Source: Deltaproteobacteria bacterium RBG_13_61_14 (lineage in GTDB: Bacteria; RBG-13-61-14). Taken from it: a DNA stretch of 31,688 bases. The stretch covers positions 50,527 through 82,214 of the forward strand of contig MGQK01000099.1 of the NCBI GenBank assembly GCA_001797815.1, given 5' to 3'. The position numbers and the translations under genes are program-made. Below the pieces are notes generated by a model. The model worked only from the letters and a program-made list of their open reading frames with translations. It was not told where the DNA came from and searched no databases. This document shows, piece after piece, positions 2,972 to 27,348 of the stretch (position 1 is the stretch's first letter; each line of letters begins with the position of its first letter).

Positions 2972-3115
2972 TTACCAGGCGTCCTTGTCCCCCGGCCCCC
3001 TCGGGACGACGCGGGTGACGCCGGTGACAAAAATCAATTCAATCGCGCCTTGATCCAAGCCATACGCACTCTGCTTTAAGGACTGACGGCTGGCGTTGCT
3101 GTTCACGGACACGGT
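2972..3115 (-). pseudogene. Partial second copy of the pilin C-terminus
   Basis: Read on the minus strand from 3115, this gives 47 codons ending in TAA (2974-2972). The product ends 'GAIELIFVTGVTRVVP...DKDAW' and parallels the C-terminus of the pilin just upstream ('GAIELIFATGVTRVVP...DKDAW'). At DNA level 2975-3054 matches 3118-3197 at a constant 143-bp offset with about 5 mismatches in 80. The preceding stretch (SVNSNASRQS) resembles the pilin's IHIQNHPRQS. There is no start codon or ribosome-binding site, and the frame is -1 relative to the pilin, overlapping its last 4 codons. It is either a truncated paralogue, a silent tail cassette, or the lost half of a longer pilin. Confidence 0.75.
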
Positions 3116-3894
3116 CCCCAGGCGTCTTTGTCCACCGGCCCCCTCGGGACGACGCGGGTGACGCCGGTGGCGAAAATCAATTCAATCGCGCCTTGACCAG
3201 CTTGAGCCTCGGCACTTTGCCGAGGGTGATTTTGGATATGGATGCGCCGATTGGCCTGGACCAAGGGGGTGGGGGGACTGACCACCCCGCCCAAGGGACT
3301 GAATAAGATGTATTCGTAACCCGCGTCGATGAAATTCTGCACCCCCCCGCCGGCCGGGCAGTTGGAGCCGAAAATTCGGGTGAAATAATCGCCTCTTTCC
3401 AGCACGAAGGGACCGTCCAAGATCACATCGTTAGTATCTATGTAGTCGGTAGTTACCGTAGGATCATCTACGCAACTCGTCGGAGGCGCGGCCTTGGGAC
3501 AGTTAATCTTAGTGTAATCATCATCGGGATCCGCAGGATCTTCATTCGGATCCGGATTGGGTTGGCATCCCATACAAGGTGTGTCGTCATCCGTATATCT
3601 GTTGTCCCCGGTGGTATCCATGAAGATCCAGAACTCGCCCGGCTCCTTGGTGCGGTCTTCGCCGCCTTTACGCCAGAAGACCACGCCGCAGGGAACTCCG
3701 CTGGAAACGGCCTGCATCTTGGCCTGTTGCAGGGTCTGGTCCACCTGGCGCACGTCTCCGCTCAGGCGCATCTGCTGAATTTGAGTATAATAACTATAGC
3801 CGGCCAGCGCGGCGAGAACGGCGATGATCGCCATCACCACCGCCATCTCGATCAGGGTAAAGCCTTTTTGATTAAGCTTCTTTCGCACCTTCAT
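3103..3894 (-). CDS. Type IV prepilin / GspH-FimT-like pseudopilin
   Basis: A 263-residue protein. The N terminus MKVRKKLNQKG|FTLIE is a class III prepilin leader, with prepilin peptidase cleavage after Gly11 and the conserved Glu at mature position 5. A hydrophobic helix follows (about 12-35). The region after the helix ('VDQTLQQAKMQAVSSG', then 'WIFMDTTGDNRYTDDD') resembles GspH/FimT minor pilins. The middle holds an Asp/Pro-rich, Cys-containing insertion (CMGC, several DP repeats). The start at 3894 is chosen over an in-frame ATG at 3930 because AAAGGAG lies just upstream and the leader then has normal length. A consensus promoter lies upstream. It is a single pilin gene with no secretion or assembly genes nearby. 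Export to the inner membrane and assembly into a pilus or pseudopilus is inferred from the leader. Confidence 0.85.
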   Translation of the reverse strand: MKVRKKLNQKGFTLIEMAVVMAIIAVLAALAGYSYYTQIQQMRLSGDVRQVDQTLQQAKMQAVSSGVPCGVVFWRKGGEDRTKEPGEFWIFMDTTGDNRYTDDDTPCMGCQPNPDPNEDPADPDDDYTKINCPKAAPPTSCVDDPTVTTDYIDTNDVILDGPFVLERGDYFTRIFGSNCPAGGGVQNFIDAGYEYILFSPLGGVVSPPTPLVQANRRIHIQNHPRQSAEAQAGQGAIELIFATGVTRVVPRGPVDKDAWGPCP

Positions 3895-3941
3895 CACCGC
3901 CGACTCCTTTCGCGGCCCCCGCACCCCCATCCCTAAATATT

Positions 3942-3983: not shown

Positions 3984-4120
3984 CTTGCCCTCCCTCAGTT
4001 TGTGACCGCGCCGCGTATTTTCGGTCTTCGTAGGGGCGCATTGATTGCGCCCACCTCCCGGCAAGGGCGCGATAAATCGCGCCCCTACCCCCGGTTCACG
4101 GAAAAATGAGGGAGGGCAAG
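3984..4120 (-). mobile_element. MITE-like element, copy 1
   Basis: A 137-bp non-coding element bounded by a perfect 14-bp terminal inverted repeat (3984-3997 with 4107-4120, CTTGCCCTCCCTCA). It is flanked by an exact 10-bp direct repeat TTTCCCCAGG (3974-3983 and 4121-4130), the signature of a target-site duplication. Inside are two palindromes in inverted orientation, each headed by GTAG and built on GGGCGC...GCGCCC stems. A second copy, reverse-oriented in the window and roughly four-fifths identical by eye, is at 26275-26409. No transposase is encoded, so mobilisation in trans is inferred. Confidence 0.85.
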
Positions 4121-4212: not shown

Positions 4213-7200
4213 TCACTGCTTGTCCCGGATGCCGCCGCGGCGATCCACCTGGCGGATCTTGAGGTAGAGCAAGATCCCGAAGAGGGTGATGATCAAGGTG
4301 GAGATGAGCAGGCCGGTGCGGCGGAGGTTGTATTGGTTCTTGGCCTGCCGCACCTGGTTTTGCAGGCGGAGCAAAACCTGGGTGCCCTGGTCATAAGCTT
4401 TCTGAAATTCACTGCGGGAAAAGGAATGGATCAGGGAGCGGGTGCGGCTCAAGGCGTCCTTGAGGTCGGCCAGGGTAAAGTAGAGGTTATCCACCTCCAT
4501 GCCTTTTTCCTGGAGCTGGCCGATCTGGGTGTTCAGCCGGTTGTAATTGTCGCGGAGAGAAACCACGGAGGCATAAAAGTAATCCGCGGTCTGGTTGCTG
4601 ACCGGGGACGCATACTGGTCGTGACATTGCTTGCACACGCTCCGGGGCCCGGTGCCCAGCATCTCATCCGCAGGCTCCTGGATGGCATGGTTGCCGTGGC
4701 AGGTCTCGCATTCGGGCCAGCCCATGGCATCGAAGGCGTCCTTGTGCTTGGAGCCGTCGAAGAGGGTGGCGTTGTTCACGTGGCACATCCGGCAGACCTG
4801 GGCGATGCTTTGCACCTGGGGCGGCACCGCGGCATGGTTGCCGTGGCAGCCGTTGCAGGCCGGGGCGCCCAGGTCGCGGCGCTGAAGGAGCGCCTGGCCG
4901 TGGACCGAGGTCTTATAGAGCGCGAGCTGGTTGGTGGGCAAAGGGGTCACCCCGTCGTCCTTGGTGTAGCCTTTCATGTATTCGGGGCTGGCGTGGCACT
5001 CGCCGCAGGTAGAAGGGAGGTTCCGCGGGTTCACCCGCGAGATCGGGCTGGTCGGTCGGCGGATGCCGTGCACCCCGTGGCAGGAGAGGCACTGGGCGGC
5101 TTTCGAGTCGTGCTTCTGGAGCAGCAGCTCGCCGTGCTTGCTCTGCTCATACTTGAGCATCTGGTCCACCGGCAACTCCGGATTGAACCGGCGCATGAAC
5201 TCGGGCGCCGCATGGCAGCGCTGGGTGCAAAACCCCGGGATCCAGGTCCGGTCGGCGCGGCGCACCGAAGTCGCCGGCCAGCGCTGGTAAATGGCGTCGC
5301 TCATCGCGGTGTCCGCCGGCGTCCCGCCGTGGCAGCCGGAGCAGAGCAGGCCGCGGCGGAAATGCACGTCGGCCGCCACCTCGCGCAAGTCCAGGAACCG
5401 GTAAGGGTCCGCCGGGTCCTGGCGGGGCCGGAACAGGGTGGACTCGTCCTGCTGGTCCGGATTGGAGTGACAGAGCACGCAGTTGTCCGAGAGCAGCACC
5501 GCCAACTGCTGGTCATCGGTCTCCAGGGTGAGAAGGTTTTGGAGTTGTTGCGGCGAGGAGAGAAGCCCGGACTCGGCGCCCCGGAAAAAGAGTTTCTGGA
5601 CCAAACCCGCGAAACTGCGGAACCGCGCCCGGGCGTCCTCGCTCAAGACCGGCTTCCCGTCTTGCAGGGCCTGCCACAACTCTCGAAAAGAAGCCGGCCA
5701 GTTGGCTTCCGTGATTGTTTGTCCCTCGACCGCCCCCGGAGAGGCGGCCGGCTCCTGGCCCCGGGCGCCGGCCGGAGCCAGGCTCAAGCCCAGCCAGGCC
5801 AGGATCAGAAAAGCCGCGGTCCGGCCGGGCCGGCGGGCCCAGGTCGCGGCCAGCACCGCCGCCAGCAGGAGCAGGCAGATGCCGGTGGCGGCGAGGTAAG
5901 AAAGTCCGACCAGGCCGTGCAAGATCGCCTGGAGCAGGACCAGCGAGGAGAGGTAGAAGTATTTCGTTTTCAGGACCAGGCGCCGGAACCCGATCAGCAG
6001 AGCGCCCAGGCCGAGCACGGCCAAGGCGGCATTGCGGGCGATCAGTTGGGCCTGGATCGGATCAGCGGAGGGGTCCATTCCCTTTTCCGGCGCAAAGCCC
6101 AGGTTCCAGGCTTTGAGCATGAGGAAAAGCAGGAAGAGGATGACCCCGACGCCGAAGTCGGTAAAAGCCGGGCTGGGGCGGTTTTGCGCGGCGCTTCGAT
6201 CCAGGATCGGGATGATCGCCCAAACCCCGAGGAGCGCGCTGATCAGGAGCAGGCAGGCCTGGGGCCCTTCCAGGCCCAGGAAGTGGGAGGGGAATTCCTT
6301 GAGCAGTTGGTAGATCCAAAGGAAATACCATTCGGGCCGGATGCCGGGATAAGCCGGCGCCAGCGGATCGGCCTTGACCCCCAGCTCCCACTCCGCGCCG
6401 GGAATCCCGGGGCCGTAAGGTAGCCAGACCGCGAGGATGGCGAGCGCGTTCAGGCAGACCACCCAGAGGAGCAGGTCGCGCAGGGTAAAGTTGGGAAAGA
6501 AGCGCATGTAGCGGAGCCGGCGGGGCTTGCCGCCTTGCGCGTGGGGAATCGGCTCGGACATGCCCTGGCGCTGGATCAGGAACAAGTGCAGCCCGACCAG
6601 GCCGAAGGTGGCCAAAGGCAGGATGCAGACGTGGAGCGCGAAGAAGCGGTAGAGGGTGTTGATGCTGACTTCCGGGCCGCCCCGCATCACTTCCAGCAGC
6701 CATTGGCCGATTACCGGGACGGACTTGACCGCGTCGGTGCCCACCGCGGTGGCGAAGAAGGCAAGCTCGTTCCAGGGAAGCAGGTAGCCGGAAAAGCCGA
6801 AGGTGAGGGCCAGGCCCAAAAGCCCGAGCCCGGTGAACCACGTGACCTCCCGCGGCTGGCGAAAGGCCTTGGTGAAAAATACGCTCTGCATGTGCACGAG
6901 CAGGGTGATGATCATCAGGTGGGACGCCCAGCAGTGGATGCTGCGGATCAGCCAGCCGAAGGGAACCACGCCGACCAGATACTTCATGCTTTCAAAGGAA
7001 CTCGCCTCCCCGGGCTGGTAATACATGAGCAACAGCATCCCGGTGGCAATCTGGATGAAGAAAAAGAAAAGGGTGACGCCCCCGAAGTAATACCAGATGG
7101 TATCGCCGCCCAGGGGGACCTCCTTGTGGCGGACGAAGGCGACCAGGTCTTGGAGGTGGAAGCGCTGGTCCAGCCAGGACCAGGGGTGTTCCAGGACGCT

Positions 7201-26190: not shown

Positions 26191-26274
26191 TGCCCCGTCA
26201 TTTTTATCGTGATGATGTGACCAAGTGACGACCTGACCCCATCATCCCATCATCCTCACACCGTCTAAGGAAGG

Positions 26275-26409
26275 CTTGCCCACCCCCATTTTTCCGGGAA
26301 CCGGGGTAGGGGCGCGATTTGTCGCGCCCTTGCCGGGACCGGGCGCAATGAATTGCGCCCCTACGCCGGCCGAAAACACGCGGCGCTGTAAAAAATGGGG
26401 GTGGGCAAA
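26275..26409 (+). mobile_element. MITE-like element, copy 2
   Basis: A 135-bp copy of the element at 3984-4120 in the opposite window orientation. Terminal inverted repeats run 18-19 bp (26275-26293 with 26391-26409, TTGCCCACCCCCATTTTT core). It is flanked by an exact 10-bp duplication CTAAGGAAGG (26265-26274 and 26410-26419). Two inner palindromes, each with a GTAG head (26306-26309 as GTAG; 26361-26364 as CTAC), are built on GGGCGCGA/TCGCGCCC and GGGCGCAAT/ATTGCGCCC stems. The rest of the 26191-26264 gap holds only short CATCATCC repeats. Confidence 0.87.
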
Positions 26410-26422
26410 CTAAGGAAGGTTC

Positions 26423-26452
26423 TTGACACCCCTGGTCTTTCTGCCCTATAGT
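26423..26452 (+). promoter_or_regulatory. sigma70-type promoter for the MaoC-like gene
   Basis: TTGACA (26423-26428), an 18-bp spacer, then TATAGT (26447-26452). Predicted start near 26459, about 44 bp before the ATG. The -35 box begins 3 bp after the right target duplication of MITE copy 2. Confidence 0.7.
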
Positions 26453-26502: not shown

Positions 26503-27348
26503 ATGGGCATGAATCGGGATTGCATCGGCAAGACCTACAAGCCGATGGAGATCGCGGTCACGGCGGAGGCCGCCAAGAAGTATGCGCTGGCCTACAATGA
26601 CGACAACCCCCATTTTCTGGAGGAGCAGCGGCCGGGCGGAATTGTCGCGCCGCCCATGTTCGGGGTGGTGTATGGCGGACTTTCGGTGGCGGCGCCGCTG
26701 TTTGACGCGGAGTTGAAAATGAACGTGGCCATGATGGTGCACGGCGAGCAGGAGATGAAGTGGTATGAGCTGGTGCGGCCGGGCGACCAGATCACCAGCG
26801 TGGCCAAGATCCAGGACATCCTGGACAAGGGTTCCGGCGAGCTCTGCCAGGTCCTGGTGGAATGCACCAACCAGCACGGGAAGAAGGTGCTGGACTCGGT
26901 TTACGGCTTTTTCGTGCGCGGCGGGGGCAGCGGCAAGAAGTCCGAGGGCAAGGCCGAGGAGCCGCGGGGCCAGGAAGCCTTCCGCGCCCAGATGTCAGTG
27001 ACCGAAGACCAGACTTACCGTTACGCCGACGCCTCCGGGGACCGCAACCCCATCCACGTCAATCCCGAGTTCGCGGTCAAAGTGGGCTTGCCCGGCATCA
27101 TCCTGCAGGGCCTTTGCACCATGGCCATTTGCCAGAAGGCGGTGTTGGATCATTGCGCCAACCGCGACCCGGCCCGGCTGAAACAACTGTTCGTGCGCTT
27201 CTCCAAGCCGGTGCTGCCCAAGGACCAGCTCTCCACCCAGGGGTGGCTGATCGAGGGGAAAGCCGGCCGCAGCCGCTTCGGCTTCGAGACTACCCGTCCG
27301 GACGGCACCGCGGTGATCAAGAACGGGCTGGCCGAAGTGGCGGGTTGA
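26503..27348 (+). CDS. MaoC-like (R)-hydratase with double hot-dog fold
   Basis: A 281-residue protein with two hot-dog domains. The N-terminal one (about 8-138) has 'YALAYNDDNPHFLE' and the C-terminal one (about 160-278) has 'YADASGDRNPIHVN', in which D180 and H185 are the catalytic pair of (R)-specific enoyl-CoA hydratases. A charged linker (141-158) joins them. The likely reaction is hydration or dehydration of an acyl-CoA. A very strong ribosome-binding site (TAAGGAGGTA) precedes the ATG. It is followed 74 bp later by the Fe-S oxidoreductase, which has the same type of ribosome-binding site, so the pair may be co-expressed for acyl-CoA oxidation. Confidence 0.88.
   Translation: MGMNRDCIGKTYKPMEIAVTAEAAKKYALAYNDDNPHFLEEQRPGGIVAPPMFGVVYGGLSVAAPLFDAELKMNVAMMVHGEQEMKWYELVRPGDQITSVAKIQDILDKGSGELCQVLVECTNQHGKKVLDSVYGFFVRGGGSGKKSEGKAEEPRGQEAFRAQMSVTEDQTYRYADASGDRNPIHVNPEFAVKVGLPGIILQGLCTMAICQKAVLDHCANRDPARLKQLFVRFSKPVLPKDQLSTQGWLIEGKAGRSRFGFETTRPDGTAVIKNGLAEVAG

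Follow-up and report, generated by a model that had tools for sequence, protein, structure and literature searches.

Two short repeats in the genome of Deltaproteobacteria bacterium RBG_13_61_14 each end 13 bp upstream of a -35 box, which raises the question of how the same kind of element came to occupy the same position before two different genes. Both repeats lie in the window, by which we mean the whole 31,688-nucleotide stretch of contig MGQK01000099.1 analysed here. The initial annotation proposed either that insertion is targeted to the upstream edge of sigma70 promoters or that the element is retained by selection as an insulator or activator. We consider it likely (probability approximately 0.68, a figure that includes the inference that RNA polymerase guides insertion) that the two copies are non-autonomous MITEs of a widespread IS family that lands just upstream of -35 boxes.

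Two MITE copies and their promoters

Copy 2, a 135-bp element on the plus strand (26275-26409) with the ends CTTGCCCACCCCCATTTTT and AAAAATGGGGGTGGGCAAA, is bracketed by the target duplication CTAAGGAAGG at 26265-26274 and, on the promoter side, at 26410-26419 (10/10 identity). The trinucleotide TTC (26420-26422) separates this duplication from the -35 box TTGACA (26423-26428), which is followed after an 18-bp spacer by the -10 box TATAGT (26447-26452). The gene served by this promoter encodes a MaoC/FAS1-type dehydratase (26503-27348, plus strand; PF01575, E=6.8e-31; PF13452, E=5.3e-23). Copy 1 is a 137-bp element on the minus strand (4120-3984), with the duplication CCTGGGGAAA at 4130-4121 (left, in the orientation of the element) and at 3983-3974 on the promoter side. 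Here TAC (3973-3971) precedes the -35 box TTGACA (3970-3965), and a 17-bp spacer leads to the -10 box TATAAT (3947-3942) of a gene encoding a protein with a type IV pilin N-terminal methylation motif (3103-3930, minus strand; PF07963, E=3.8e-9). Both copies start with CTTGCCC and end with GGGCAAG or GGGCAAA, and a search of Rfam gave no match anywhere in the window.

The claim of the initial annotation that both copies lie 3 bp upstream of TTGACA, with target duplications that differ between them, held, and its coordinates were confirmed; the 10-bp duplications are perfect in both cases. The same end of the element faces the promoter in both copies, as was also claimed, although genome-wide this shared orientation is only a 2.5:1 bias.

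A palindromic core of the MITE, GTAGGGGCGCGATTYATCGCGCCC, is found at 26307-26365 and 4032-4088 of the window. It occurs 117 times in the genome when two mismatches are allowed, in many cases outside elements with CTTGCCC ends, and similar 25-mers are also present in an unrelated genome (G033). We interpret GTAGGGGCGCGATTYATCGCGCCC as a second repeat family that is nested in the MITE or shared with it.

The position of the promoter relative to the element end

DNA and end-pattern searches recovered approximately 48 copies or fragments related to copy 2 in the 4.74-Mb genome. The family meets the criteria for MITEs, being multicopy, mostly 135-149 bp long and without a transposase gene, with 19-bp inverted ends and 10-bp target duplications; the duplication was perfect in 18 of 39 copies and at least 8/10 identical in 29 of 39, versus 2% at random. 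The flanks were aligned by the element ends alone, blind to flank content, such that offset 13 corresponds to the 10-bp duplication plus 3 bp. In the right flanks, at least five of the six bases of TTGACA were found at offset 13 in 18/41 cases, and TTGA in 20/41, while the left flanks gave a smaller peak at the same offset (7/40 with at least 5/6). At nearly all other offsets, this match was seen in zero or one flank. Over all 87 ends, 26 had at least 5/6 of TTGACA at offset 13; the background rate for a single end and offset is 0.34% (binomial P=4e-43). Since no two flanks are related (31/60 in the best ungapped match), the TTGACA at this offset was not copied along with the element. In 35/39 copies, one side or both had TTG no more than 1 bp from the expected place, and the remaining four (L018, L026, L028 and L043) had no TTG so close to it on either side. 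In one of these, L026 (around 1501-1638), the duplication is perfect and there is no promoter at 13; TTGACA is found instead at approximately 27 on the right and 20 on the left.

Flanks were also scored for a -35 plus a -10 box with a 16-19 bp spacer, using a total of at least 8 as the threshold. This score was reached by 25/41 right flanks and 10/46 left flanks, whereas random positions in these loci reached it in 0.75% of cases. With stricter spacing, the 39 copies with both flanks available divided into 24 with a promoter on the right only, 7 on the left only, 8 on neither side and none on both, and thus 31/39 had a promoter on exactly one side. Among all promoter calls, 25 were at the right end of the element and 10 at the left (P=0.017), which shows that orientation is a preference of approximately 2.5:1 for the right end rather than a rule. 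A -10 box was present at a spacing of 16-18 bp, usually 17 bp, in 72-76% of the offset-13 -35 sites.

An alternative is that the transposase itself reads the motif NNCTTGAC, which is like its own end CTTGCC, and that the -10 box is incidental, since those intergenic TTGACA sites where an insertion is tolerated happen to be promoters. In favour of this reading, the strongest columns of the target, CTTGAC, resemble the element end, and CTTGCC is itself the target in L004, L015 and L030. However, when 400 kb of this genome served as background for TTGAC sites, with a rough gene call, a -10 box was present at 29/124 noncoding sites (23%) and 3.6% of 728 coding sites, versus 17/22 (77%) of element-adjacent sites (Fisher P=2e-6, element-adjacent versus noncoding). 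Furthermore, targets with weak -35 boxes, such as TTGCCC and TTGATT, are still followed by good -10 boxes at 16-17 bp. As TTGAC next to an element usually has a -10 box and other noncoding TTGAC rarely does, the data indicate that promoters, and not TTGAC alone, are the target, and we regard direct motif reading as unlikely.

The same spacing in other hosts

Just two genomes of the same order were represented among 40 broad relatives. One of them, G002 (CAIUDS01, an uncultured delta proteobacterium), has elements whose ends are the same but whose interior differs, and at offset 13 these have TTGACA in L080, L079 and L088 and TTGACT in L086, with L084 at offset 12. The end sequence was found at 79 loci when 84,980 species genomes were scanned for it. 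Outside the window's genome, 48 of 153 distinct ends had at least 5/6 of TTGACA at offset 13 (P=1e-69), a set that includes extra copies fetched from several of the scanned genomes. As a promoter is expected at only about half of all ends, the observed third is near the expected maximum. The 48 matches come from 14 genomes: besides G002, these are further deltaproteobacterial or Thermodesulfobacteriota bins, members of Nitrospinota, Troglogloeales and Acidobacteria, and unclassified bins. Owing to host descent, not every copy in a given genome is independent of the others, though their flanks differ. Several solo matches (in Streptococcus, Arthrobacter, Saprospira and others) that appeared to be chance or coding were left out of the 153 ends; this exclusion was made by record, before the flanks were scored as a set but after an earlier look at some of them. 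Among paired elements elsewhere, 27/31 had TTG at offset 12-14 on a side. The initial annotation had suggested collecting all copies and looking for TTGACA at a fixed distance, and this check was strongly positive in the window's genome, in G002 and in 13 further genomes. These results show that the inner edge of the 10-bp duplication lies 3 bp upstream of a sigma70-type -35 box, in either orientation and in several hosts.

One empty site is informative about the order of events. G001, which belongs to the same genus as G002, has an orthologue of the gene at L079 together with its promoter, TTGACA-N17-TTTATT, and lacks the element; similarity between the two genomes starts exactly at CTTGACA. 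In this single informative case, the promoter predates the element, the corresponding comparisons for L087 and L077 being uninformative at the promoter.

Two further features of these genomes were observed. A second end variant, CTTGCCCACCTTCACTTTT, is found in four deltaproteobacterial-type bins (G041, G044, G045 and G048), and many of its elements have the same promoter spacing, suggesting parallel MITE subfamilies. In G002, L090 and L097 share an outward flank repeat, TGACCGYCTAACMCTTTT..., common to two element ends, which likely reflects insertion into or beside another repeat.

If insertion were random and only copies upstream of promoters persisted, through insulation or activation, a similar association could arise by selection. 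Consistent with this, the elements form strong RNA folds (z -7 to -8), which could block read-through, and promoter-facing copies precede genes of varied types that begin mostly 45-130 bp from the element. Selection would, however, allow a spread of distances, whereas 30 of the 35 promoter calls in the window's genome are at exactly offset 13 and the other 5 are at 12 or 14; the spacing is also identical across different element interiors and hosts. Because the spacing is precise to the base pair and a -10 box is present, targeting is favoured, and selection appears very unlikely, though we have no functional data on insulation or activation. The proposal of insertion targeted to the upstream edge of sigma70 promoters is thus supported, without distinguishing bound polymerase from promoter DNA as the feature recognized.

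A putative IS4-type source, a proposed mechanism and known systems

The 19-bp family ends, CTTGCCCWCCCYCAKTTTT, also delimit larger elements, whose full members encode a small cysteine-rich DUF6788 (PF20586) protein and then an IS4-type DDE/YREK transposase. Few full-length transposase copies were available, and L177 and L104 had no promoter at the expected offset. L106, from Acidobacteria, is complete: its 1925 bp include both ends, the DUF6788 gene and that of a transposase of 399 aa, in which we identified D109, D175 and E285 as well as Y278/R281/E285/K292 (PF01609, E=2.6e-14). In L154 (Nitrospinota), the ends lie 1200 bp apart around DUF6788 and an IS4-type transposase that is truncated, and beyond each end a -35 box lies at offset 13; the 10-mers flanking this element (5442-6641) do not match, as if two copies had recombined or an inner part had been deleted. 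L177 has both genes and one end, L118 has an end linked to DUF6788, and G002 retains remnants of both genes between the same ends.

We found no transposase of this family in the window's genome, and the solo ends examined there revealed no autonomous copy, suggesting that its MITEs are orphaned or that the source was missed in the 95% complete assembly. Their mobilisation by an IS4-type transposase is thus inferred from identical ends, with matching elements known only from other genomes and from the remnants in the same order. Since a search of 386 diverse genomes gave one partial transposase match only, the distribution of the transposase appears to be patchy. A plasmid collection contained only distant ISTth2-like IS4 transposases (28% identity) and no DUF6788. 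The structure model of the 110-aa DUF6788 protein was moderately confident (pLDDT 70) and had no PDB match below E=0.001, and that of the transposase was unusably poor (pLDDT 43). DUF6788 is named in no paper of the open-access literature that we searched, which did not extend to ISfinder, and this absence is weak evidence.

Could a Mutator-type (ISKra4/ISLre2) transposase mobilise the MITEs, their ends matching IS4-type elements by chance? The known promoter-targeting transposases are Mutator-type, act at a similar distance of 13-17 bp from the -35 box and belong to elements whose ends carry a conserved terminal C (PMC3942029). Against this, ends that match at 19/19 positions flank DUF6788 and DDE_Tnp_1/IS4 genes, Mutator-type duplications are 8-9 bp (PMC3942029) versus 10 bp here, and no Mutator model matches the end-linked transposases, for which only IS4-related and similar DDE_Tnp_1 models do (a comparison that excludes the window's genome). 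We therefore consider a Mutator-type source very unlikely and retain the IS4-type element as the putative source.

In the mechanism that we propose, the RNA polymerase holoenzyme, or the shape that it imposes on promoter DNA, would direct the transposase complex to promoters. By arithmetic, if the -35 hexamer is placed at -35 to -30, the duplicated segment spans approximately -48 to -39, and docking may occur at this position, the expected site of the alpha-subunit C-terminal domain or of a class II activator, via DUF6788 or the transposase N-terminus. Insertion there would spare the -35 and -10 boxes and, because these stay intact, would leave genes undisrupted at low cost to the host. Two points favour polymerase guidance: the importance of the -10 box, and the use of nearly the same place by an unrelated transposase family. 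DUF6788 is a candidate adaptor only because its gene travels with the transposase; both its role and contact with RNA polymerase are inferences for which we have no data. A bolder reading, that an IS4-type family with DUF6788 as adaptor to the holoenzyme evolved independently of the Mutator-type elements and spread MITEs in many phyla, seems to us to fall a little short of probable. With targeting of this kind, a 140-bp element can take the place of the regulatory DNA upstream of dozens of genes in a genome and leave the core promoter intact. DUF6788 gains a testable role, and the transposase is a possible enzyme for marking active promoters.

The source element shares with the IS4 family its D65D109E spacing, the Y278-R281-E285-K292 signature and duplications of approximately 10 bp, the family criteria being Y(2)R(3)E(6)K, D(60-110)D(100-150)E and a duplication of approximately 10 bp (De Palmenaer 2008; PMC2266710). 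Unlike IS4, a single-gene element, it carries DUF6788 ahead of the transposase, and its matches to the IS4 model NF033591 (E=1.4e-39; 136 and 127 bits) are below the curated cut-off of 152. Because of the second gene and these scores, we call it IS4-like rather than a standard member. The IS4 review describes strong target specificity in some members of IS4 subgroups, and the word "promoter" is absent from its text (PMC2266710); its target-site figure was not covered, and it remains possible that some known IS4-subgroup elements share the promoter target. Yeast Ty1 and Ty3 likewise rely on the host transcription machinery to integrate close to genes transcribed by Pol III (PMC5911963), and the Ty3 analogy is drawn in PMC3942029 as well, but these are eukaryotic retrotransposons with an integrase, and a protein contact has not been shown for the present family.

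The closest parallels are the TnGBS ICEs, ISLre2 and part of the ISKra4 group, which insert 13-17 bp upstream of sigmaA promoters and for which contact with the RNA polymerase initiation complex has been proposed (Guerillot and colleagues, PMC3942029). TnGBS and ISLre2 (p-MULT 3) likewise keep a fixed distance (15-17 bp) from the -35 box downstream of them, and it is mostly one end that faces the promoter (PMC3942029). They differ in having a Mutator-type transposase, 8-9 bp duplications and mainly Firmicutes hosts, whereas the present family has an IS4-type YREK transposase with DUF6788, a 10-bp duplication and a distance of 13 bp from the element end. Orientation in the Mutator-type elements follows end asymmetry (PMC3942029), and ISKra4 (p-MULT 4) has promoters on both sides when its ends are nearly symmetric, comparable to the near-symmetric ends and both orientations seen here; its transposase and duplications are again Mutator-type and 8-9 bp, and no DUF6788 is reported for it in PMC3942029. 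The present family thus works like the Mutator-type promoter-targeting elements without being a member. In the literature that we searched, where absence is weak evidence, promoter-directed insertion has hitherto been described only for Mutator-type transposases. What is new is therefore an unrelated, IS4-type transposase family with an already known targeting habit, and that this second family uses almost the same geometry suggests that both families share a docking surface on the promoter complex.
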